Below, piece after piece: positions 14,083-23,903 of a stretch of DNA of 64,000 bases. The stretch covers positions 1 to 64,000 of the forward strand of contig NZ_JAEMNW010000006.1 in assembly GCF_016481275.1 (NCBI RefSeq), read 5' to 3'. The notes under the pieces are model-generated. The model did not search any database, was not told where the DNA came from, and was given only the letters and a program-made list of their open reading frames with translations. Position numbers and translations under genes: made by a program. Origin of the DNA: Antrihabitans auranticaus. Its GTDB lineage: Bacteria > Actinomycetota > Actinomycetes > Mycobacteriales > Mycobacteriaceae. Each line of letters begins with the position of its first letter. Position 1 is the first letter of the stretch.

Positions 14083-14955
14083 TCAGATATTGTCCGCTGT
14101 CACCGGAAGCTTTCGAACTCGCGAGCGGCGAATTGCGTGCGCGACCGAGAACTTGCCGCGTTTCGGGTCGTAGGGCCGATGCAAGACATACAGCAGAACA
14201 TGGAAGTACTTGTGATAGCGCAGGGCCTTCTCGATCTGCGGCGTCATCGCCCCATGGAGCGTGAACGTCTTCGTCCCGGAGTCGATGTATGCGGTGAAGT
14301 CCCTGGGCGGAGTCAGCGCCCGGCGCGGCGAAATGTCGACCCGCATATCCGTGAGCTGCAGGATCTTGGGTCCCTCGGCATTGATGCAGAGCGCGAGGTC
14401 GACGTCTTCGTGGATGTCTTTACGGGTGCTGACGTCGTCGCGCACCTGCTCCCATACCGAGCGTCGAATCGCCATGTTCGCACCGTGCAGGTTGCGGATC
14501 TCGCGATCGCCGCCCATCGCGCCGAGCCGAACCTGCCGCGCCACCCACCAGCCCTTCATTTTTCGGAAGGGTGAGTCGTAGGAGTTGTTGAGTCCGCTGA
14601 TGCCGCCCACGTGGTCGACGTCATCGCGTTCGAAGAAGCCGAGGACGACGCTCGCCCAGTTCGGGTACGCGCGCGAATCGGAGTCGAGGCGACCGAGAAT
14701 ATCGCCTGTTGCTGCATCGAAACCACGGTTGCGCGCAAATGCAACGCCGGGCTCTGGCTCGCTCAGCAGCTGAATCTTTGGCTGTTCTTTCGCGAATTCA
14801 CGCACGATCGCTGCGGTGGAATCGGTCGAGTTATTGTCGACGACGATGATTTCGTGAAGCTCGTCGACCTGGCTGACCAGTGCTTCCAGGCACGGTCCGA
14901 TGTAATCCTCTTCGTTGAATGCCGGAATGACCACCGAAAGAGTGTGTTTTGCCAC
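14083..14955 (-). CDS. Glycosyltransferase family 2
   Basis: A 290-residue GT-A enzyme. The N-terminus LSVVIPAFNEEDYIGPCLEA, the IIVVDNNSTDST strand and the metal-binding LDSDSR motif are clear, with the acceptor-side HGANMAIRRS and HEDVDL later. There is no membrane segment in the catalytic part; the last ~60 residues are amphipathic and basic. It probably adds a sugar to a lipid or cell-wall precursor; donor and acceptor are unknown. GTG start; it stands alone between alkB and the GntP permease. Confidence 0.8.
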   Translation of the reverse strand: MAKHTLSVVIPAFNEEDYIGPCLEALVSQVDELHEIIVVDNNSTDSTAAIVREFAKEQPKIQLLSEPEPGVAFARNRGFDAATGDILGRLDSDSRAYPNWASVVLGFFERDDVDHVGGISGLNNSYDSPFRKMKGWWVARQVRLGAMGGDREIRNLHGANMAIRRSVWEQVRDDVSTRKDIHEDVDLALCINAEGPKILQLTDMRVDISPRRALTPPRDFTAYIDSGTKTFTLHGAMTPQIEKALRYHKYFHVLLYVLHRPYDPKRGKFSVAHAIRRSRVRKLPVTADNI

Positions 14956-15001: not shown

Positions 15002-16453
15002 CTAGGCGAAGATCGCGAACAGAATCGCGGCTACCGAGAAGCTCACGACCGAAAGGATCGTCTCGAGCACTGTCCAGGTTTGCAGGGTCTGCTTCACGGT
15101 GAGGTTGAAGAATTTCGAGATGATCCAGAATCCGCCGTCGTTGACGTGGCTGAGAATGATCGACCCCGCGGCAATCGCCATCGCGATCAGCGCGACGGCC
15201 ATCTGCGAATACTGATGCTCCGCGACCAACGGTGCGACGATGCCGCCGGTGGTGACGATGGCAACAGTCGCCGACCCCTGTGCGATGCGCAGTCCGCAAC
15301 TGATGATGTAGGCCAGCACGATGACGGGCAGTCCTGCGGCGGACATGGTGTCCGCGAGGGCCGTTCCTATTCCGGTTGCCGAGATCACCTTGCCGAAGAA
15401 TGCGCCCGCACCGACGACGAGCAACAGCATGCCGACCGGACGCAATGACTCACCGGTGAGGGTGCTGAGGTCTTGCACGCTGGAGCCGCGCCGGACGCCG
15501 AGAACGTAGAACGCCACCAGCACGGCGATGAGCAGCGCGACCGCGGGTGTCCCGAAGAACGTGAGCACCTGAAGCAGGCGCGAGCCTTCGTCGAGCAGCT
15601 GGGTGCCGAACGTCGCGCCCAGTATCAGGACCAGGGGAATCGCGATGATCGCACCGATGAGTCCGACCGAGGGCGGAGCCGCTGTCGCTTGCGCGACGGG
15701 CGCCGTCTTTACGCCGGTGCCGCCGCCACCCGTGGCGTCGTCGTCCGAGTCGGCTTCGATCAGGAATTCCTTCGGCACCTCCACGATGACGCGCTTGCCG
15801 ATGTAGCTGCCCCAGACGATGCCTGCCGCGATGAATCCTGGAATGCCGCAGATGAATCCCATGAAGATCAACCACCCGAGGCTGACTTCCAGCAGGCCAC
15901 CCAGCGCGACGGGTCCGGGATGTGGCGGCAGGAAGGCATGCGTCATGGACAGGCCGGCAAGCATCGGCATCGCGTAGAGGACGAGCGACTTGCCGCCGCG
16001 TTTGGCCGCCACGTACACGAGCGGTGCGAGAACGAAGATGCCGATGTCGAAGAAGACGGGGATTCCGAAGATCAGCCCCAGCAGTCCCATCGCGACCGGT
16101 GCGCCACGCTCCCCGAACACGCCGAGCAGCTTCGTCGTCAATACGTCTGCACCGCCGGACTTTTCGAGGATCGCACCCAGCACCGTCCCGAGTCCGATGA
16201 TCACGGCGATATGCCCGAGGATGCTGCCGAAGCCGACTTCCAAGAGGGATTCGTTGCTCTTGATCGCGGTCCCGACGATCTGCGAAACCGGAAGCCCCGC
16301 AGCAAGAGCCAGGGCAAGCCCAGTGATCAGCAGAGCGATGAAGGGTTCCAGTTTGATCTTGATGATCGTGAAGAGCAGGATCGCAATCGCGAGGCCGCAG
16401 AGCACCAACAGCCCAGGCGTGGAGGTGCGAAGCCAGTCGATGGTGGAGCTCAT
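15002..16453 (-). CDS. GntP family permease (sugar-acid:H+ symporter)
   Basis: A 483-residue membrane protein with about 12-14 hydrophobic segments. It carries family motifs such as FGIPVFFDIGIFVLAPL and THAFLPPHPGPVA, and a long acidic/Gly-rich cytosolic loop near the middle. Known members import gluconate and related sugar acids. Its start overlaps the KDPG aldolase stop (ATGA, 16450-16453), so it is the last gene of a four-gene operon. In this context the cargo is more likely N-acetyl-D-glucosaminate or another aldonic acid feeding 2-keto-3-deoxygluconate than plain gluconate (inference). The upstream open frame to 17152 is only the aldolase read in another frame. Confidence 0.85.
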   Translation of the reverse strand: MSSTIDWLRTSTPGLLVLCGLAIAILLFTIIKIKLEPFIALLITGLALALAAGLPVSQIVGTAIKSNESLLEVGFGSILGHIAVIIGLGTVLGAILEKSGGADVLTTKLLGVFGERGAPVAMGLLGLIFGIPVFFDIGIFVLAPLVYVAAKRGGKSLVLYAMPMLAGLSMTHAFLPPHPGPVALGGLLEVSLGWLIFMGFICGIPGFIAAGIVWGSYIGKRVIVEVPKEFLIEADSDDDATGGGGTGVKTAPVAQATAAPPSVGLIGAIIAIPLVLILGATFGTQLLDEGSRLLQVLTFFGTPAVALLIAVLVAFYVLGVRRGSSVQDLSTLTGESLRPVGMLLLVVGAGAFFGKVISATGIGTALADTMSAAGLPVIVLAYIISCGLRIAQGSATVAIVTTGGIVAPLVAEHQYSQMAVALIAMAIAAGSIILSHVNDGGFWIISKFFNLTVKQTLQTWTVLETILSVVSFSVAAILFAIFA

Positions 16454-17085
16454 GAATAGACCTTTCCGGACATGGATCGAACGAACGAGACTGCACGCGA
16501 GGAAATTTCGGCCCACTCGCCGGCCGCGACCGAAGCGGGCGGAACGACGTCGGTGCCGGCCGTGACCGCGACGGCACCCTGCGCGAGAAACTCGGCGGCA
16601 TTGCCTGCGTTGACTCCGCCGGAGGGGATCAGCGACACACCGGGAAACGGTCCGAGGAGATCCTTGAAGTAGCCGGGACCGAGTGTGCGGGCCGGAAAGA
16701 TCTTGACTGCCGCAGCACCGAGGTCGAGCGCGGCAAGTACCTCGGTGGGGGTGAAAGCGCCCATCACCACGGGGATTCCGCGCTGATTCGCGACTGCCGC
16801 AACTTCGGCGCGCACGCCGGGAGTGACGAGGAACTGGGCGCCGCTGTCGATAGCCGCACGGGCCTGATGGCCGGTGACGACCGTGCCGAGGCCGACTACG
16901 GCGGTCGACGATGCGGCAGCGGCGCGCAGACAGTCGAGGACGCCCGGCGTCGTGAAGGTCAGTTCGAGCGCCCTGATTCCCGACGCTGCCAAGGCATCGG
17001 CGAGCGCCAATGGGTCCGGCACGACCGGCGCACGAACGACCGCGAGCACGCGGTCCGCCAGGATTACCTGCATTGCGGTAGTCAT
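16450..17085 (-). CDS. eda: 2-dehydro-3-deoxy-6-phosphogluconate aldolase
   Basis: A 211-residue class I aldolase that splits KDPG into pyruvate and glyceraldehyde 3-phosphate. The Schiff-base Lys is in AAVKIFPA, the catalytic Glu in LELTFTTP, and the phosphate-binding PSGGV loop is present. Start ATG 17085 has GAAGGAGA upstream and overlaps the stop of the deacylase (17082-17085). It forms the last step of the pathway encoded by this divergent cluster, after the KDG kinase at 20079. Confidence 0.9.
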   Translation of the reverse strand: MTTAMQVILADRVLAVVRAPVVPDPLALADALAASGIRALELTFTTPGVLDCLRAAAASSTAVVGLGTVVTGHQARAAIDSGAQFLVTPGVRAEVAAVANQRGIPVVMGAFTPTEVLAALDLGAAAVKIFPARTLGPGYFKDLLGPFPGVSLIPSGGVNAGNAAEFLAQGAVAVTAGTDVVPPASVAAGEWAEISSRAVSFVRSMSGKVYS

Positions 17086-18695
17086 CGAGTCTCCTTCGCA
17101 TCGGCGTCCAGCCGCAGCGCGCGACCTGCGAGAGCGCCTGTAGCCGAGCCATTTTCGATCGCGCACACGCCGTTCACAATGACGTGGCCGATACCTCGCG
17201 CCTGCTGTTTAGGACTTTCGAACGTCGCGGTGTCGGTGACGGTCGCGGGATCGAAGAGCACGAGGTCGGCGGCATAACCGATTTCGATACGCCCGCGATC
17301 CCGCAGCCGGAGACGTTCCGCCGGCCGACCGGTCAGGTGGTTGACGCACTCCTCGAGGCTGAGCAGTCCGACATCGCGTACGTAGTGACCGAGGTAGCGC
17401 GGAAAGGTGCCCCACGCCCGGGGGTGCGGTCGTTCGCCGACGAGAATCGCATCGCTGCCGCCCATGTGCTTGGGATGCACCATGATCGCGCGCACATTCT
17501 CCTCGTGCCCGACGTGCTGCAGGATCGTTGTCGCGAGCTTGTCTCGGCGCAGGAGGTCGAAGAACACGTCCACCGGGGACAGTCCGCGCTCGGCGCTGAT
17601 TTCGACGATGGTCTTGCCGACGTACCGGTCGAGTTCCGGGTTTGCGACGCCGCTCAGCTGGATCGTCTCCCACTCGACGGTAACGCCATGGCAGCCGTCG
17701 GACCCGTTTACGTTGACGTCCCTCGTGATTCGCTCGCGCATAGCCGGATCCTCGAAGCGCTCCAGAGCGGCGTCCGGACCTCCGGACATCGCCCAACTGG
17801 GCAGCAGCGCGGAGAGCGTGGTGGCGCCTGGCAGGTAGGGGTAGGTGTCGAGAGTGATGTCGCAGCCCTCGGCGAGGGCTGCGTCGATCATGGACAGGAA
17901 TTCCGGTGCGCGGCCACGATTGACGCCGAAGTTCATGGTCGCGTGCGTCAGGTGCAGCGCACATCCTGTGCTGCGCGCCAGTTCGATCATCTCGGCGTAG
18001 GCCTCCAGCGCACCGGCACCGTAGGAGCGGGTGTGCGGGGCATAGAAACCGCCGAACTCAGCGACGACCTCGCACAAGGCCGCGAGTTCACCTGTGTCCG
18101 CATACATTCCGGGCGTGTAGGTGAGGCCACTCGACATGCCGACGGCGCCTTCGGAGAGGCCTTGGGCCAACAGGTCTTGCATGCGGCGGATCTCGCTGGG
18201 AGTGGCCGGTCGCTTGTCCGCGCCGACCGCGAGGAGGCGCAGCGTGCCCTGTGGAACGAGATACGCGGCGTTCGGCGTTATGCCCTGATCGAGCCTGTCG
18301 AGGTAGCCGGCAACGCTGCGCCAGGAGAAGTCGAGGTCGGCGGGATTGCCGTTCCAGCCAGCGATCTGGCGGCGGACGATATCGAGTGTGCGGTCGTCGA
18401 TCGGTGCGTACGCAATGCCGTCCTGGCCGAGTACCTCGGTAGTCACGCCCTGGCTGATCTTTGCGAAATGGCCGGGATCGGTGAGCAGTCGCAGGTCCGA
18501 GTGTGCGTGCATGTCGATGAAGCCGGGCGCGAGTACGGTACCGGGCGCCGTGTCGATGATCTTGTCAGCGTTGGCCGGCAGGCCGGTTGCGGCGATGTCG
18601 CTGATCTTCCCGCCGTCGACGAGCACGTCTGCGCGATACCGCGGAGCGCCAGTTCCGTCGATGACATCGACGTCGCGAATAAGTAAGTCAGTCAT
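17082..18695 (-). CDS. N-acyl-D-amino-acid deacylase family; candidate N-acetyl-D-glucosaminate deacetylase
   Basis: A 537-residue amidohydrolase of the D-aminoacylase family. The metal site shows as GFIDMHAHSD near the N-terminus, with later His in LTHATMNFG and the family ending GSDAILVGERPHPRAWGTF. The family removes N-acyl groups from D-configured amino acids. D-glucosaminate is such an alpha-amino acid, and the neighbours (PLP deaminase, RidA, KDG kinase, KDPG aldolase, GntP) match the route for 2-acetamido-2-deoxy-gluconate described for chitin oxidation in Pseudoalteromonas. I therefore prefer that substrate; a generic D-aminoacylase is the alternative. ATG 18695 is chosen; ORF extension beyond it is not family-like. 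Confidence 0.8.
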   Translation of the reverse strand: MTDLLIRDVDVIDGTGAPRYRADVLVDGGKISDIAATGLPANADKIIDTAPGTVLAPGFIDMHAHSDLRLLTDPGHFAKISQGVTTEVLGQDGIAYAPIDDRTLDIVRRQIAGWNGNPADLDFSWRSVAGYLDRLDQGITPNAAYLVPQGTLRLLAVGADKRPATPSEIRRMQDLLAQGLSEGAVGMSSGLTYTPGMYADTGELAALCEVVAEFGGFYAPHTRSYGAGALEAYAEMIELARSTGCALHLTHATMNFGVNRGRAPEFLSMIDAALAEGCDITLDTYPYLPGATTLSALLPSWAMSGGPDAALERFEDPAMRERITRDVNVNGSDGCHGVTVEWETIQLSGVANPELDRYVGKTIVEISAERGLSPVDVFFDLLRRDKLATTILQHVGHEENVRAIMVHPKHMGGSDAILVGERPHPRAWGTFPRYLGHYVRDVGLLSLEECVNHLTGRPAERLRLRDRGRIEIGYAADLVLFDPATVTDTATFESPKQQARGIGHVIVNGVCAIENGSATGALAGRALRLDADAKETR

Positions 18696-18706
18696 AGTTT
18701 TTCGTT

Positions 18707-19969
18707 CTAGAAGAAGGTGTGGATGAGATCGACGATGCGCGGGTGCTCGGCGTCGGCGTCGTCGACGACTGGAATTAGCCGCCACTTGTCGAATGCCGTG
18801 CAAGGGTGGGAGAGGCCGAGCCGAACGACGGTCCCGACCGGTGGCGCGCTCGCCATTCGGAGAAAGGCATGCTGATCGTTGAGAGCAGTCACCTTGGCGT
18901 CAGCGTTCGAGCCGATGCCCGCAATACGTTGCGGCACCGGCAATCCCTCGTCGTAGGGTAAGTCGCGCTTGCCCGCGTCGAGCAGTGCCAGCTCGGGTTC
19001 GGGCCGGGAAACGACGCGCGCCCAGCCGTGCATGGCTGACCGCAGCGGATGGTCCGAACGGTCGGGAATCATCGGTGAGATGCCGGCGTAGAAGCCGTCG
19101 TCGTGAATGATGTACGCGCCGGAGCGCAAGACAACCGATGTGGCATCGTCGGCAAGGTCGGCCAGCCGTTCGACGACGAGGTCTTGGTAGGCGCTGCCGC
19201 CGGCAGTGACGATCGCCTGTCCCGGATACCGCCCGGAAGCGGCAAGTTCGTTGTGCAACAACGCAATCTGATCCAAATAGGTCCGGACATTCGCCAGGCC
19301 TTCGGTCGAGCGGTCATGACTCAGCGCGCCCTCGTATCCGCCGACTCCCGCAAGCGACAATCGCGACGAGGCGGCGACCGCGGCTGCCACTTCCAACGCC
19401 GCGGCGACCGTCCGAGCGCCGGTCCTGCCGTGGGGCCCGCCGAGTTCGACGATCACCTTGATTCGTGGTCCGGAGGTCGGCCGCAGCTGATCCTCCATCA
19501 CCGCAACTGTCTCGACGCTGTCGACCCAGCTGACGAACTCGAACGCGGGGTCGCGGTCCAATTCACCTGCAACCCAATGCAAACCGATGGGGTCGACGAG
19601 TGCGTTCGCAAGCATGATGCGGCCGACCCCGAAGGATCGTGCCAACTGCACCTGCCACGCGGTCGCCAGCGTGATCCCCCACGCTCCGGCGGCGAGCTGC
19701 TTTGCCCACAGCTGCGGTGCCATCGTCGTCTTTCCGTGCGGTGCGAGCTGCACCCCGGCGGCCTTGGCCCAGTCGGCCATTGTCGCGATGTTGGAGTCGA
19801 TCGCACTGCTGTCCAGCGTGAGGGCCGGCGTCACCAACCGGTCGAAAGTGGGTACGTCGCGAAGGAAATCGCGCGCCGTCCTACCCCAGGCTTCTGGCGG
19901 CAGGCCTTTGTGTTGTGGTCCGAGAACACGGTCGGCGAGTGCAGCGACGGCGTCGGCGTCGATTGTCAC
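18707..19969 (-). CDS. PLP-dependent D-amino-acid deaminase/D-threonine-aldolase-like; candidate D-glucosaminate dehydratase
   Basis: A 420-residue fold-type III enzyme (alanine-racemase N-domain plus D-Ser dehydratase-like C-domain). The PLP Lys is about K80 in LAPHGKTTMAPQLW, and the metal-site motif GLSHPCTAFDKW lies at the C-terminus. Relatives cleave D-threonine or eliminate ammonia from D-serine. D-glucosaminate elimination to 2-keto-3-deoxygluconate and ammonia is the same chemistry and fits the cluster. GTG 19969 has AAAGGA upstream. It is first in the leftward operon, 11 bp from the deacylase, and shares the divergent operator with the kinase. Confidence 0.78.
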   Translation of the reverse strand: MTIDADAVAALADRVLGPQHKGLPPEAWGRTARDFLRDVPTFDRLVTPALTLDSSAIDSNIATMADWAKAAGVQLAPHGKTTMAPQLWAKQLAAGAWGITLATAWQVQLARSFGVGRIMLANALVDPIGLHWVAGELDRDPAFEFVSWVDSVETVAVMEDQLRPTSGPRIKVIVELGGPHGRTGARTVAAALEVAAAVAASSRLSLAGVGGYEGALSHDRSTEGLANVRTYLDQIALLHNELAASGRYPGQAIVTAGGSAYQDLVVERLADLADDATSVVLRSGAYIIHDDGFYAGISPMIPDRSDHPLRSAMHGWARVVSRPEPELALLDAGKRDLPYDEGLPVPQRIAGIGSNADAKVTALNDQHAFLRMASAPPVGTVVRLGLSHPCTAFDKWRLIPVVDDADAEHPRIVDLIHTFF

Positions 19970-19984
19970 GGTGATCCTTTCTGC

Positions 19985-20035
19985 GTTGCATATGATGCAA
20001 CGCATGTTGCGTATTTTGTACGCACTGGCTATTCT
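19985..20035. promoter_or_regulatory. Divergent control region: IclR-type operator and kinase promoter
   Basis: A perfect inverted repeat GTTGCAT-ATG-ATGCAAC lies at 19985-20001, just 16 bp upstream of the deaminase GTG. To its right, TTGCGT (20007-20012) and TATTCT (20030-20035) with a 17-bp spacer make a good promoter reading toward the kinase. The IclR protein encoded at 21080 is the obvious binder. Confidence 0.7.
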
Positions 20036-20078
20036 GCAATGGATAGCGCGCAGCCGCAAGGGGTCGAAGGAGATTGAT

Positions 20079-21083
20079 GTGACGAGGGTCGCCACCATCG
20101 GTGAGGGATTGGCAGTGCTCGTCGCGCAGCCCGGTCCGCTCGAGGACTCGTCGACGTTCGAGCGGTCGGCAGGGGGCGCGGAGGCGAATGTGGCGACCGT
20201 CCTCGCGCAACTGGGCATCGACTGTGCGTGGATATCCCGGGTCGGCGCCGATGGCTTCGGCCGCTACCTCGTCCGGCATTTGGCGGAGCGCGGGATCGAC
20301 GTCTCGGCCGTTGTCACCGATTCCACCCGGCCGACCGCCGTGTATGTGAAGGAGCGCGGCGGTGGCTCGGGCGGTCCGGCCGACCTGCGCCTTGGCGAAA
20401 GTCGAATGCTGTACTTCCGCAGCGGATCCGCGGCAAGTGCGTTCTCTCCCGCCGACCTTCTGCAGGCCGCAGATGTCTTGGACCGGTCCGATCTCGTGCA
20501 CTTCACCGGCATCACACCCGCATTGTCGGAATCTGCGACCGCACTCACCGAGGCACTGCTGGCCAGGCGGCGCGGCGGCGCGCTCGTCAGCTTCGACCTG
20601 AACTACAGGCCCGCGTTGTGGACAGGGCGGGACGCTGCGGAAGTCCTGGCCCGCCACGTGCGCGGCAGCGATGTGGTCCTGATGGGTGCCGACGAGGCCA
20701 GCGCTGTGTTCGGCACCGAGGACCCGTCAGAGCTGCGAAAGCTGTTCCCCGAGCCCGAACATCTCGTCGTCAAGAACGACGCGCACACGGTGACCGGCTT
20801 CCGGCGCAGTGAGCGTGTGGACGTACCCGCACTTCGCCTCGAAGTGGTCGAGCGGATCGGCGCGGGTGACGCCTTCGCGGGCGGCTTCCTTGCCGGACTG
20901 CTACACGGGCGCGGCCACGAGGAGCGCCTGCGATTCGGGCATCTCTGTGCCGCAGCAGCTTTGACCGGGCACGGTGACATCGCAGAGTTGCCCGCGCTAA
21001 GTCGTCTGGAGGCGCTCGCATCGGTCGATTCGGCAACCTGGGCGCGTATGGAATATGTCCTGTCCGAGAATGTTGCGCTATGA
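20079..21083 (+). CDS. 2-keto-3-deoxygluconate kinase (PfkB/ribokinase family)
   Basis: A 334-residue sugar kinase phosphorylating KDG to KDPG with ATP. The PfkB signature 1 region GGAEANVATVLAQLG is present, and signature 2 with the catalytic base is RIGAGDAFAGGFLAG. GTG 20079 is preceded by GAAGGAG at 20066-20072; long upstream open frame is antisense to the deaminase and is ignored. It overlaps the IclR gene by ATGA (21080-21083) and starts the rightward operon of the cluster. Confidence 0.85.
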   Translation: MTRVATIGEGLAVLVAQPGPLEDSSTFERSAGGAEANVATVLAQLGIDCAWISRVGADGFGRYLVRHLAERGIDVSAVVTDSTRPTAVYVKERGGGSGGPADLRLGESRMLYFRSGSAASAFSPADLLQAADVLDRSDLVHFTGITPALSESATALTEALLARRRGGALVSFDLNYRPALWTGRDAAEVLARHVRGSDVVLMGADEASAVFGTEDPSELRKLFPEPEHLVVKNDAHTVTGFRRSERVDVPALRLEVVERIGAGDAFAGGFLAGLLHGRGHEERLRFGHLCAAAALTGHGDIAELPALSRLEALASVDSATWARMEYVLSENVAL

Positions 21084-21847
21084 GTCAAAGTTTGCTGCGC
21101 GCGCTGACGATCCTTACGTCCCTCGGCGACGACTCCAAGTCTCTGGATCAGTTGGCTACACAGCTCGACGTGCACAAATCGACCGTATTGCGATTGCTGC
21201 GGACAATGGAGTCAGAGCGTTTCGTCAGCCACGACGAGGAGCATCGCTACCAACTCGGTTCACGCTTCTTCGAACTCGCCAATCATGCTCTCGAACAGCG
21301 CGACATCCGGACCCTCGCCAGACCGCACCTGAGCGCGCTCAACTCGAGCACCGGTCAGACGATTCACCTGGCCACGTACGAAGCAGGCGACGCGATCTAC
21401 ATCGACAAGTTCGATGCGATTCAAAGCGTCCGGATGTATTCGCGCGTCGGACGGCCCGCGCCACTGCATTGCACCGCTGTCGGAAAGGTCCTCGTATCGT
21501 CGCGTCCCCGCGCCGAATGGCGTGAGATCGCCGAACGAATCACGTACCCGCGCTTCACCGAACGCACGATCACGACACCTGACAAGTACATCGAAGAGCT
21601 CGAACTGGTTGCATCGCAGGGCTATGCGGAGGACCACGAAGAGCACGAGAGCTTCGTGAACTGCATCGGTGTGCCCATTCGGAACGGAACGGGCGCGGTT
21701 GTCGCCGCAGTATCGATGTCTGTGCCCGACATGCTGCTCGACCACGATCAAGTTCTCGCGACGCTGCCGCAAGTCCGCGCGGCGGCAGACGCAATATCGG
21801 CCGAACTCGGCTGGAGTCCGCAACTACGTCGAACGAAAGGCTCGTAA
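21080..21847 (+). CDS. IclR family transcriptional regulator
   Basis: A 255-residue regulator with an N-terminal winged helix (LDQLATQLDVHKSTVLRLLRTM) and a C-terminal GAF-like ligand domain (HCTAVGKVLVSS, CIGVPIRNGTG). In this family the ligand is usually a sugar acid or aromatic acid. It is co-translated with the KDG kinase and RidA, so I infer that it represses both arms of the cluster from the palindrome at 19985-20001, with KDG, KDPG or the imported amino-sugar acid as inducer. Confidence 0.85.
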   Translation: MSQSLLRALTILTSLGDDSKSLDQLATQLDVHKSTVLRLLRTMESERFVSHDEEHRYQLGSRFFELANHALEQRDIRTLARPHLSALNSSTGQTIHLATYEAGDAIYIDKFDAIQSVRMYSRVGRPAPLHCTAVGKVLVSSRPRAEWREIAERITYPRFTERTITTPDKYIEELELVASQGYAEDHEEHESFVNCIGVPIRNGTGAVVAAVSMSVPDMLLDHDQVLATLPQVRAAADAISAELGWSPQLRRTKGS

Positions 21848-22251
21848 TGACCCAGAAAATCGCGGTACGGACAACCGACGCACCGGCACCGGCGCACACC
21901 TTCTCGCAGGGCGTTCGCAAGGGCCCTTTCGTGCAGGTGTCGGGCCAGGGCCCCGTCGACCCGGCAACCAACGAGTACCTGTATCCGGGAGACGTTGCTG
22001 CCCAGACGCTCCGGACTCTGCAGAACGTCAAGGCAATCATCGACGCGAGTGGTGCGACCTTCGACGACGTGGTGATGCTGCGCGTCTACTTGACAACGCG
22101 CGACGATTTCGCCGCGATGAACGACGCCTACGGCGAATTTGTGCGAGCCAACACCGTCGGTGATGTGCTGCCGAGTCGCACGACCGTCTTCACGGGGCTG
22201 CCGCGCGAGGAGATGCTCGTCGAGATCGATGCGATCGCGGTAGTGGATTAG
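21847..22251 (+). CDS. RidA family enamine/imine deaminase
   Basis: A 134-residue RidA/YjgF-type protein. The family Arg in MLRVYLTT and the Glu of EMLVEIDAIA are present. RidA proteins hydrolyse reactive enamine/imine intermediates released by PLP-dependent dehydratases, which explains its place next to the deaminase of this cluster. It starts on the last base of the IclR stop (TAATG at 21845-21849), so it is translationally coupled. Confidence 0.88.
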   Translation: MTQKIAVRTTDAPAPAHTFSQGVRKGPFVQVSGQGPVDPATNEYLYPGDVAAQTLRTLQNVKAIIDASGATFDDVVMLRVYLTTRDDFAAMNDAYGEFVRANTVGDVLPSRTTVFTGLPREEMLVEIDAIAVVD

Positions 22252-22310: not shown

Positions 22311-23903
22311 ATGGCGATCAACGAGGATCTGTCCCGACCTGATTCGACCGCGAAAGGTGAGTCCGATCCTGCGCGAAGTTCCGTGCGGACCGACCTTGTG
22401 GTCTTTATCGTCACGGCTGTCATAGCCGCGGCAATTCTCGTCTGGGGACTGGCGTGGGCTGACAATCTCGACAGCGTGTCGTCCACGATTCTGAACTGGC
22501 TTGTCGTGAATCTCGGCTGGCTGTTCGTCGTCGCGGCATCCGGATTCGTGCTGTTCGCGGTGTGGTTGGCCGTCAGCAGGTTCGGAAAGATTCCGCTCGG
22601 AAAAGACGGCGAGAAGCCCGAGTTCAACACCGTCAGCTGGATAGCGATGATGTTCAGCGCCGGCATGGGAATCGGGCTGATGTTCTACGGCGTCACCGAG
22701 CCTCTGACGCATTTCGTGACGCCGCCACCCGGATCCGAACCCGGAATCGGAACTGCGATGGCGACGACGATGTTCCACTGGAGCCTGCACCCGTGGTCGA
22801 TCTACGCGGTCGTCGGTCTGGCGATCGCCTACGGCACCTACCGGATGGATCGCAAGCAGCTGATCAGTTCGGCGTTCATTCCGCTACTCGGGAAGAAGCG
22901 AACCGAAGGTCCGATCGGCAAGGTCATCGACATTCTGGCCATCTTCGCCACGATGTTCGGCACTGCCGCTTCCCTCGGCCTCGGAGCGCTGCAGATCGGC
23001 TCCGGAGTCGAGGTTCTCGGCTGGATGGATGCAGCGGGGACCTTGTTGCTCGTCGCCGTCGTCGCAATCCTCACGTTGGCGTTCGTCGCCTCTGCCGTCT
23101 CGGGTGTCGCAAAGGGTATTCAGTGGCTGTCGAACATCAACATGGTGCTGGCGTTGATCCTCGCCGTCTTCGTGTTCGTATGTGGCCCGACGGTGCTGAT
23201 CCTCAACCTGATTCCCACGGCACTCGGTGACTACGCCTCCGACATAGTCGGCATGTCGGCCCGCACCGCGGCCGCCGGTGATACCGCGACGGCCGAATGG
23301 CTGTCGTCCTGGACGATCTTCTACTGGGCCTGGTGGATCTCGTGGACACCGTTCGTCGGAATGTTCCTGGCGCGCATCAGCCGCGGTCGCACTATTCGGC
23401 AGTTCGTCATCGGCGTCATCCTCGTCCCGAGTGTGGTCAGCCTGCTGTGGTTCTCGATCTTCGGCGGCGCCGCTATCGGTCAGCAGCGCGAGGGCACCGA
23501 CCTCGCGGGACGGGGCACGCCGGAATCGCAACTGTTCGGGATGCTCGAAGGCCTCCCGCTTGCCGGTGTCGCGTCGTTCCTCGTCATGCTGCTGGTGGCG
23601 ATCTTCTTCGTGTCCGGTGCAGATGCCGCATCGATGGTCATGGGCACGCTTTCGCAGCGAGGCACCCTCGACCCGACGAGGTGGGCAGTCGTCTTCTGGG
23701 GTCTGCTGACGGGCGGTATCGCCGCCCTGCTGTTGTGGACGGGCGGCTCCGACGCCCTCAACGGACTGCAGCGAATGACGATCATCGCAGCGGCGCCGTT
23801 CACGATCGTGATGATCGGACTATGCGTCTCGCTGTACCGTGACCTCAGCAGCGACCCACTGATCATCGAGGGGTTGCGTCAGCGGCGGGAACGGATCGAC
23901 TGA
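22311..23903 (+). CDS. BCCT family betaine/carnitine/choline transporter
   Basis: A 530-residue permease with 12 expected helices. The BCCT signatures GMGIGLMFYGVTEP and the Trp-rich WAWWISWTPFVGMFLARIS are both present. It probably imports a trimethylammonium compound such as glycine betaine with Na+ or H+. The N-terminal cytosolic tail is short and there is no long C-terminal osmosensor domain. AAAGGA lies ~10 bp before ATG. It follows the RidA gene by 59 bp and could be read through from that operon, though it has no obvious role in the sugar-acid pathway. Confidence 0.85.
   Translation: MAINEDLSRPDSTAKGESDPARSSVRTDLVVFIVTAVIAAAILVWGLAWADNLDSVSSTILNWLVVNLGWLFVVAASGFVLFAVWLAVSRFGKIPLGKDGEKPEFNTVSWIAMMFSAGMGIGLMFYGVTEPLTHFVTPPPGSEPGIGTAMATTMFHWSLHPWSIYAVVGLAIAYGTYRMDRKQLISSAFIPLLGKKRTEGPIGKVIDILAIFATMFGTAASLGLGALQIGSGVEVLGWMDAAGTLLLVAVVAILTLAFVASAVSGVAKGIQWLSNINMVLALILAVFVFVCGPTVLILNLIPTALGDYASDIVGMSARTAAAGDTATAEWLSSWTIFYWAWWISWTPFVGMFLARISRGRTIRQFVIGVILVPSVVSLLWFSIFGGAAIGQQREGTDLAGRGTPESQLFGMLEGLPLAGVASFLVMLLVAIFFVSGADAASMVMGTLSQRGTLDPTRWAVVFWGLLTGGIAALLLWTGGSDALNGLQRMTIIAAAPFTIVMIGLCVSLYRDLSSDPLIIEGLRQRRERID

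Follow-up and report, generated by a model that had tools for sequence, protein, structure and literature searches.

Which compound is degraded by the seven genes that occupy positions 15002-22251 of a 64-kb stretch of the Antrihabitans auranticaus genome (contig NZ_JAEMNW010000006.1, positions 1 to 64,000; hereafter the window)? All open reading frames of the cluster lie within this interval and form two tight divergent operons (Table 1). The minus-strand operon encodes a GntP-family permease, a 2-keto-3-deoxy-6-phosphogluconate (KDPG) aldolase, a D-aminoacylase-like amidohydrolase (hereafter the deacylase) and a fold-type III pyridoxal phosphate (PLP) enzyme, and the plus-strand operon a PfkB-family kinase, an IclR-family regulator and a RidA-family protein. 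The intergenic distances in coordinate order, from GntP to RidA, are 5, -4, 11, 109 (the divergent promoter), -4 and -1 bp. The initial annotation had read these genes as a tight divergent cluster for catabolism of N-acetyl-D-glucosaminate (GlcNAc1A), the acid form of N-acetylglucosamine (GlcNAc). The count and arrangement of the genes are borne out by the open reading frames, the Pfam and NCBIfam families, which are consistent with the gene names given, and the gap lengths. As argued below from comparative sequence analysis, the locus is very likely a regulated catabolic cluster for GlcNAc1A, an oxidized sugar that remains after the oxidative cleavage of chitin.

In the proposed pathway, GntP would import GlcNAc1A, the amidohydrolase would strip its acetate, and the PLP enzyme would dehydrate and deaminate D-glucosaminate to 2-keto-3-deoxygluconate (KDG), with RidA hydrolyzing the enamine/imine intermediates of this step. 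The PfkB kinase would then convert KDG to KDPG, to be cleaved by the aldolase to pyruvate and glyceraldehyde-3-phosphate. The IclR regulator would control both operons via a single palindrome, its inducer being perhaps KDG or a near intermediate. Two of the proteins pass curated NCBIfam cut-offs, namely the permease (TIGR00791, 373.9 bits, cut-off 292.75) and the aldolase (the model TIGR01182 for KDPG and 2-keto-4-hydroxyglutarate, 176 bits, cut-off 156.05); the aldolase fails the cut-off of the 2-keto-3-deoxy-6-phosphogalactonate (KDPGal) aldolase model NF006600 (100.8 against 207).

The search for the gene set across actinobacterial genomes, which the initial annotation had suggested as a check, found it to recur, to varying completeness. 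Named genomes of bacteria and archaea, scanned with an alignment of the deacylase, yielded 457 deacylase relatives, and the loci of the best 80 of them (hereafter the named loci) were searched with the window proteins by tblastn. The PLP enzyme is found in all 80, RidA and IclR in 73 each, the kinase in 70, GntP in 54 and the aldolase in 25, counts that are lower bounds because contig ends cut some loci. The named loci include those of Nocardia, Mycobacterium, Tsukamurella, Kribbella, Nocardioides, Arthrobacter, Amycolatopsis, Saccharopolyspora and Streptomyces. Since Nocardia, Tsukamurella and Arthrobacter have the set with the same gene order and strands, the cluster is not a chance grouping; an annotated Tsukamurella record holds all seven genes in the order of the window. 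In a sample of the phylum, a relative of the PLP enzyme is present in 26 of 396 genomes. The surrounding stretches were compared for 25 of these besides the host, and a close deacylase (at least 53% identity) occurs in 13, accompanied by RidA in 13, IclR in 12, the kinase in 11, GntP in nine and the aldolase in one. Five family-mates (L051-L054, L058) have the PLP enzyme alone and none of the other six genes. Relatives of the cluster are widespread in Streptomyces-like bacteria.

A link to N-acetylhexosamines is provided by gene fusions and by neighboring genes. In one genome (G257) a deacylase 53% identical to that of the window shares an open frame with a glycoside hydrolase family 20 (GH20) beta-N-acetylhexosaminidase domain (E 3e-90), which contains a GGDE motif that we take to be the GH20 catalytic pair. 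The fused frame is present in 20 of 99 genomes of this genus, called in 19 by a single match that extends to query residue 987 or beyond and in G491 by two matches inside a 1257-residue frame. Next to the G257 fusion lie genes for a glucosamine-6-phosphate-isomerase-family protein, for RidA and for a PLP enzyme, together with two ROK-family genes; the stretch yielded neither a kinase nor an aldolase resembling those of the window. One of the ROK-family genes has a weak helix-turn-helix match and is matched in 20 of the 23 loci of the G257 type (L154-L176). Among the named loci, a separate nearby GH20 gene is observed in six, a PF10282-type lactonase in nine, and a sugar ATP-binding cassette (ABC) importer, recognized by its solute-binding protein, in seven, one of them at 32% identity only (Pfam checked on L107 and L109); in some Pseudonocardiaceae all three adjoin the cluster. 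The lactonase fits the pathway because a chitin-active lytic polysaccharide monooxygenase (LPMO) of Streptomyces coelicolor yields C1-oxidized chito-oligosaccharides with lactone and aldonic-acid ends (PMC9820598). In the GH20 proteins of L198, L107 and L091 a signal peptide is not evident by eye, and the solute-binding proteins start in a lipoprotein-like manner. Matches to GH18, seen in seven of the 80 named loci and in seven of 11 loci of the Streptomyces-like genomes of our G series, some of them cut by the end of the stretch, may reflect no more than synteny and count for little here.

The divergent promoter contains one exact copy of an operator-like palindrome, GTTGCA-N5-TGCAAC, 15 bp ahead of the start of the PLP enzyme gene and 77 bp ahead of that of the kinase. 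It is the sole site with at most two mismatches in the window and the sole exact copy in the genome. Of 81 regions upstream of the PLP gene (those of the named loci and the window), 74 contain a site with at most two mismatches, compared with 39 of 5822 background tiles, and 30 an exact site, compared with 1 of 5822, figures that are partly circular as they use the loci where the motif was first spotted. Scanned for exact copies, eight genomes with the cluster gave eight sites in five of them, and none with a reversed-pattern control. Five of the eight lie at the cluster promoters of the host (G000), G128, G193, G334 and G171. Another is located in G171, 21 bp (3 bp by an alternative start codon) ahead of the solute-binding gene of an operon that joins an ABC importer with GH20, and one in G334, 40 bp ahead of an unlinked KDPG aldolase gene (PF01081, E 8e-73); the additional site of G128 (C1:249402) is without a clear target.

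The palindrome was then tested on 20 further stretches around GH20 matches in Streptomyces-like genomes, 390,808 bases with 10 sites in total; the ABC-GH20 cases other than G171 are independent of motif discovery. All four complete operons of the G171 type (L202, L203, L205 and L209, with solute-binding proteins 65-71% identical) have a site with at most two mismatches, located 21, 23, 21 and 23 bp, respectively, ahead of the ATG. No site was found within 1 kb of the solute-binding gene in the distant ABC-GH20 loci L212-L214 (30-32%). The other 13 stretches include L206, with a 1-mismatch site 213 bp from GH20, L217, with one 3 kb off, and 11 without a site, among them L204, whose contig ends before its solute-binding gene. 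In Pseudonocardiaceae, a 1-mismatch site precedes the solute-binding ATG by 11 bp in L089 and L130, and the GH20 ATG by 25 bp in L109; among the 23 loci of the G257 type, a 2-mismatch site is present in one. This palindrome, which the cluster shares with unlinked genes for KDPG aldolase and ABC-GH20, points to an aldonate derived from an N-acetylhexosamine as the likely substrate. Because the same palindrome precedes the ABC importer and a GH20 enzyme without an evident signal peptide, the importer of the larger actinobacteria probably takes up C1-oxidized chito-oligosaccharides, which GH20 would trim inside the cell to GlcNAc and GlcNAc1A.

A similar indication comes from the distribution of the LPMO_10 family. 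Of 397 genomes from the order, 87 encode the deacylase (E up to 1e-120) and 154 encode LPMO_10; 74 genomes have both, 13 the deacylase only, 80 LPMO_10 only and 230 neither. LPMO_10 thus occurs in 74 of 87 genomes with the deacylase compared with 80 of 310 without it, and by genus in 24 of 30 compared with nine of 56; 55 of the 87 deacylase genomes belong to one family. In the phylum sample LPMO_10 is found in 15 of 396 genomes, 11 of which are cluster-bearing genomes of one Streptomyces-like genus. Together with the GH20 fusions, the linked GH20, lactonase and importer genes and the shared palindrome, this co-occurrence supports the GlcNAc1A route proposed in the initial annotation. The further suggestion that chitin LPMO genes be sought in the same genome had a negative outcome, with no match to LPMO_10; GH18 and GH20 gave no match either. 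The host as a chitin oxidizer was therefore rejected on these three families (GH19 and other oxidases were not searched), which leaves it as at most a scavenger; it probably takes up through GntP the free acid made by others.

The closest functional precedent is the ong cluster of Pseudoalteromonas prydzensis ACAM 620, which comprises OngA, OngB, OngC, OngD, KdgK, OngIT and OngR (PMC9537276, PMC12017989). Deacetylation, deamination and phosphorylation in sequence have been proven in this bacterium and the aldolase step proposed, and the versions in Vibrio, Klebsiella and Serratia add a KDPG aldolase (PMC9537276). We compared the window with four ong-type loci (two from Pseudoalteromonas, one each from Vibrio and Klebsiella). 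Both systems unite in one locus a deacylase of the D-aminoacylase superfamily, a fold-type III PLP deaminase, RidA and a sugar kinase, and GH20 lies within the ong locus as it lies nearby or fused in some actinobacterial relatives. However, the window deacylase is only 31-35% identical to the ong-type enzymes and has Asp in place of the metal-binding Cys, the PLP enzyme is 34-36% identical, and the kinase is 24-28% identical in three loci, with no match in the fourth. The actinobacterial systems employ GntP or an ABC importer instead of an SSS transporter and an IclR instead of a MurR/RpiR regulator, and no match to GH20, the counterpart of OngA, or to LPMO_10 was found in the host. In phylogenies of the PLP enzyme (52 sequences) and the deacylase (43 sequences) the four ong-type loci separate from the clade of the window; in the former the ong-type enzymes form a 100/99 clade with the window enzyme outside, and the latter carries a long-branch warning. 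A published survey of genomes, 2,455 of them marine and 12,220 terrestrial, which required four co-occurring genes more than 30% identical to the ACAM 620 proteins, located the pathway in Gammaproteobacteria and one Achromobacter (PMC9537276). Such a screen could miss the actinobacterial cluster because of the identities of the kinase (24-28%) and of the two enzymes (31-36%). No report of an actinobacterial GlcNAc1A pathway was found among the titles and abstracts listed from the open-licence PMC literature.

The Das chito-oligosaccharide system of Streptomyces (PMC12370203) likewise has a sugar ABC importer for chitin products; the excerpted main text of that paper makes no mention of aminoacylase, oxidized, IclR, GlcNAc1A, hexosaminidase, gluconate or chitobionic. 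In Actinokineospora a GntR regulator that is DasR-like by eye lies between the GH20 gene of the cluster and a sugar ABC importer (L109, 14429-15262), recalling the Das system.

The roles of OngB residues, including the metal ligand Cys97 and the sugar-contacting residues, are taken from PMC12017989, and the OngB numbering was transferred via a Pseudoalteromonas ong-type locus (L036) with Cys97 at the identical number. The window deacylase keeps the equivalents of His68, His70, Tyr194, His222, His252, Tyr285, Asp368 and Arg379. Its Asp92, invariant in both alignments, sits at the position of the metal-binding Cys of OngB and AfDam. It perhaps has Arg for Gln298 of OngB, in a column that is uncertain owing to an insertion loop that aligns poorly. 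The top-scoring solved relatives by sequence, which are also among the best fold matches of its model, are AfDam of Alcaligenes faecalis (1M7J), an N-acyl-D-glutamate deacylase (3GIP) and a Klebsiella D-acylase (9G5M). The window enzyme shares with the D-aminoacylases the HxH motif, both metal-binding His, the catalytic Asp and the carboxylate-binding Arg, and differs from them in the metal Cys, the lysine of HHK, which is replaced by Thr, and a longer insertion; of the Cys/His/His metal site of subtype V D-aminoacylases it thus retains the two His and the catalytic Asp, with Asp92 for Cys. Its AlphaFold2 model (mean predicted local distance difference test score 87.2) adopts the D-aminoacylase/OngB fold, with template modeling (TM) scores by query length of 0.81 to 1m7j, 0.83 to 3gip and 0.83 to PpOngB (9kb3). 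The GQDG motif was rejected as a marker of the function, since it is also carried by one haloarchaeal and one alphaproteobacterial deacylase with no KDG kinase or fold-type III PLP enzyme annotated within 4 kb.

The best PDB match of the PLP enzyme is 3gwq (E 1e-65). It has Lys80 within PHGKTT and a His388-x-Cys390 motif; we take the latter to be typical of dehydratases, and the role of Lys80 is a similar assumption. The PHGK lysine and His-x-Cys motifs are common to the D-serine dehydratase/D-threonine aldolase family (3GWQ, 3ANU, 4V15). The protein of 3GWQ was called D-serine deaminase by its depositors; the window enzyme differs by its context with a KDG-type kinase.

Several observations weigh against assigning the cluster to GlcNAc1A. 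The substrate, each reaction, the binding of the regulator and the inducer are inferred. In the deacylase, Cys97, Glu226, Lys254 and Ser290-292 of OngB are replaced by Asp, Tyr, Thr and Gly-Ala-Thr, respectively. A profile of 26 deacylases scores AfDam 1m7j at 362.7, 9g5m at 333.5, 3gip at 318.7 and PpOngB 9kb1 at 293.1 bits, and the model has similar TM-scores (0.78-0.83, query length) to 9g5m, 1m7j, 3gip and PpOngB; it does not discriminate D-aminoacylases from OngB, nor does it decide the substrate. The kinase belongs to the PfkB family and reaches 178.5 bits with its best NCBIfam model, that for kinases of KDG and 2-keto-3-deoxygalactonate (NF040938), below the cut-off of 400; similarly, the regulator has the IclR domains and scores 197.4 bits with the KdgR model NF011671, below the cut-off of 275. 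The exact palindrome is absent from three of the eight cluster genomes scanned (G278, G023 and G257), the first two having cluster sites with two and one mismatches, respectively. Apart from the count by genus, the LPMO association is not corrected for phylogeny or genome size, and in the family of the window LPMO_10 accompanies the deacylase in only three of 12 genomes, with nine lacking it. Among 35 cluster genomes (34 named ones, that of L081 not among them, and the host) it occurs in 19 and is absent from 16 including the host, whose genome shows no match to GH18 or GH20 either. By residues, tree and profile scores, orthology of the deacylase with OngB was rejected. The initial idea of an actinobacterial version of the Pseudoalteromonas route with a GntP permease is supported, with the correction that the deacylase lacks several key residues of OngB. 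As judged from its sequences, the cluster would work like ong but is not a member of it.

A rival reading is general catabolism of N-acyl-D-amino acids, such as N-acetyl-D-serine or D-threonine derivatives, by the deacylase, a D-serine/D-threonine deaminase and RidA, with the kinase and aldolase being incidental. The nearest solved deacylases are D-aminoacylases, the nearest PLP structures are annotated as D-serine deaminase and D-threonine aldolase, OngC itself also accepts D-serine and D-threonine (PMC9537276), and other enzymes of the wider deacylase family are accompanied by D-amino-acid genes or ABC transporters. Nevertheless, an ordinary D-amino acid would call for neither the KDG-type kinase found in 70 of the 80 loci nor a palindrome ahead of a KDPG aldolase gene, the GH20 fusion or the linked GH20, ABC and lactonase genes, so that we regard this explanation as improbable. 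About equally improbable is the same chemistry on another N-acyl amino-sugar acid (N-acetyl-D-galactosaminate or -allosaminate) or on a non-acetyl N-acyl group. The deacylase is indeed unlike OngB at sugar-contacting residues, and GH20 enzymes can use either GlcNAc or N-acetylgalactosamine; on the other hand, the aldolase passes the KDPG and fails the KDPGal model, and the cluster co-occurs strongly with an LPMO family of which a chitin-active S. coelicolor member yields C1-oxidized chito-oligosaccharides (PMC9820598).

Use of gluconate or KDG only, which the joint presence of GntP, a KDG-kinase-like gene, a KDPG aldolase and a KdgR-like IclR protein might suggest, is very improbable, as all 80 loci pair the deacylase with the PLP deaminase, and neither enzyme would have a role. 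The alternative left by the initial annotation, a general D-amino-acid or gluconate function, is accordingly disfavored by the kinase and deaminase counts and the GH20 linkage. Somewhat less unlikely, and overlapping with the reading favored here in everything except the source of the acid, is a GlcNAc1A pathway fed by enzymatic oxidation of free GlcNAc rather than by LPMO-cut chitin. The absence of LPMO_10 from 16 of 35 cluster genomes, the host included, speaks for such a source, whereas oligosaccharide-bound acid in the larger genomes is favored by the order-wide LPMO association and by the palindrome that precedes sugar importer and GH20 genes. Returning to the GlcNAc1A assignment with chitin as the source, we consider it probable that Actinomycetota own a separately assembled regulon for C1-oxidized chito-oligosaccharides, composed of an IclR regulator with its palindrome, an ABC importer and intracellular GH20, a deacetylase of a D-aminoacylase lineage other than OngB, with Asp for Cys in the metal site, a deaminase, a KDG kinase and a KDPG aldolase, and that the Nocardia-like relatives have its monomer branch only, with the free acid entering through GntP.

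Table 1. Features of the seven-gene cluster in the window; the GTG start of the kinase gene (20079) was picked by eye
Feature	Position	Strand	Support
GntP-family permease, proposed N-acetyl-D-glucosaminate importer	15002..16453	-	TIGR00791 and PF02447, E 2e-120
KDPG aldolase (Eda type)	16459..17085	-	TIGR01182 and PF01081, E 2e-42
D-aminoacylase-like amidohydrolase, proposed N-acetyl-glucosaminate deacetylase	17082..18695	-	PF07969, E 2e-38
PLP enzyme of fold type III, like D-serine dehydratase; proposed dehydrating deaminase of D-glucosaminate	18707..19969	-	PF14031, E 4e-20
Divergent promoter region, 109 bp	19970..20078	.	Gap between the operons
Predicted IclR-family operator GTTGCATATGATGCAAC	19985..20001	.	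Exact GTTGCA-N5-TGCAAC palindrome; predicted IclR binding
PfkB kinase, proposed 2-keto-3-deoxygluconate kinase	20079..21083	+	PF00294, E 3e-48
IclR-family regulator, KdgR being the nearest curated model	21080..21847	+	PF01614, E 3e-47
RidA-family protein, proposed enamine/imine deaminase	21847..22251	+	PF01042, E 3e-30

Immediately outside the cluster, a family 2 glycosyltransferase is encoded at 14083-14955 of the window. On the other side a BCCT-family transporter gene (22311-23903) starts 59 bp past RidA; it was not counted as a member of the system because none of the 80 named loci has it by tblastn. The host genome encodes a second fold-type III PLP enzyme, 44% identical to the first (G000:C1:1402217-1403503; L031, L062), followed by a RidA-like gene in a stretch without deacylase and kinase, and this is probably an ordinary D-amino-acid deaminase.

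Some related loci show other combinations of these genes. In L047 (7636-12270) and L048 (9333-12710) the PLP enzyme is paired with a far more distant GQDG deacylase (34-37%), perhaps of another acyl or sugar specificity; L047 additionally has the kinase, IclR and a partial aldolase match. In L050 and L065 the PLP enzyme adjoins a ROK-family gene and a kinase of KDG-like type (33-34%), and a deacylase match is absent from the stretch, perhaps reflecting a pathway for free glucosaminate. On a Microbacterium plasmid (L034, 7974-11785) the matches to the kinase, PLP enzyme and deacylase are each broken into two or three pieces, as if frameshifted through sequencing or decay. Finally, an ong-like cluster on a Klebsiella plasmid (L039, 3745-10149) has an annotated 2-dehydro-3-deoxygalactonokinase and KDPGal aldolase instead of those of the KDG type, and might be a galactosaminate version.

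Published work describes Streptomyces as major decomposers of chitin in soil that carry several LPMO genes (PMC9820598). The gene set, its palindrome and the predicted regulon would bear on the fate of the oxidized chitin chain ends in these bacteria. The cluster may explain why a screen with marine genes found the pathway in Proteobacteria only, and it suggests that relatives of D-aminoacylase and D-serine dehydratase were twice assembled into the same catabolic logic.

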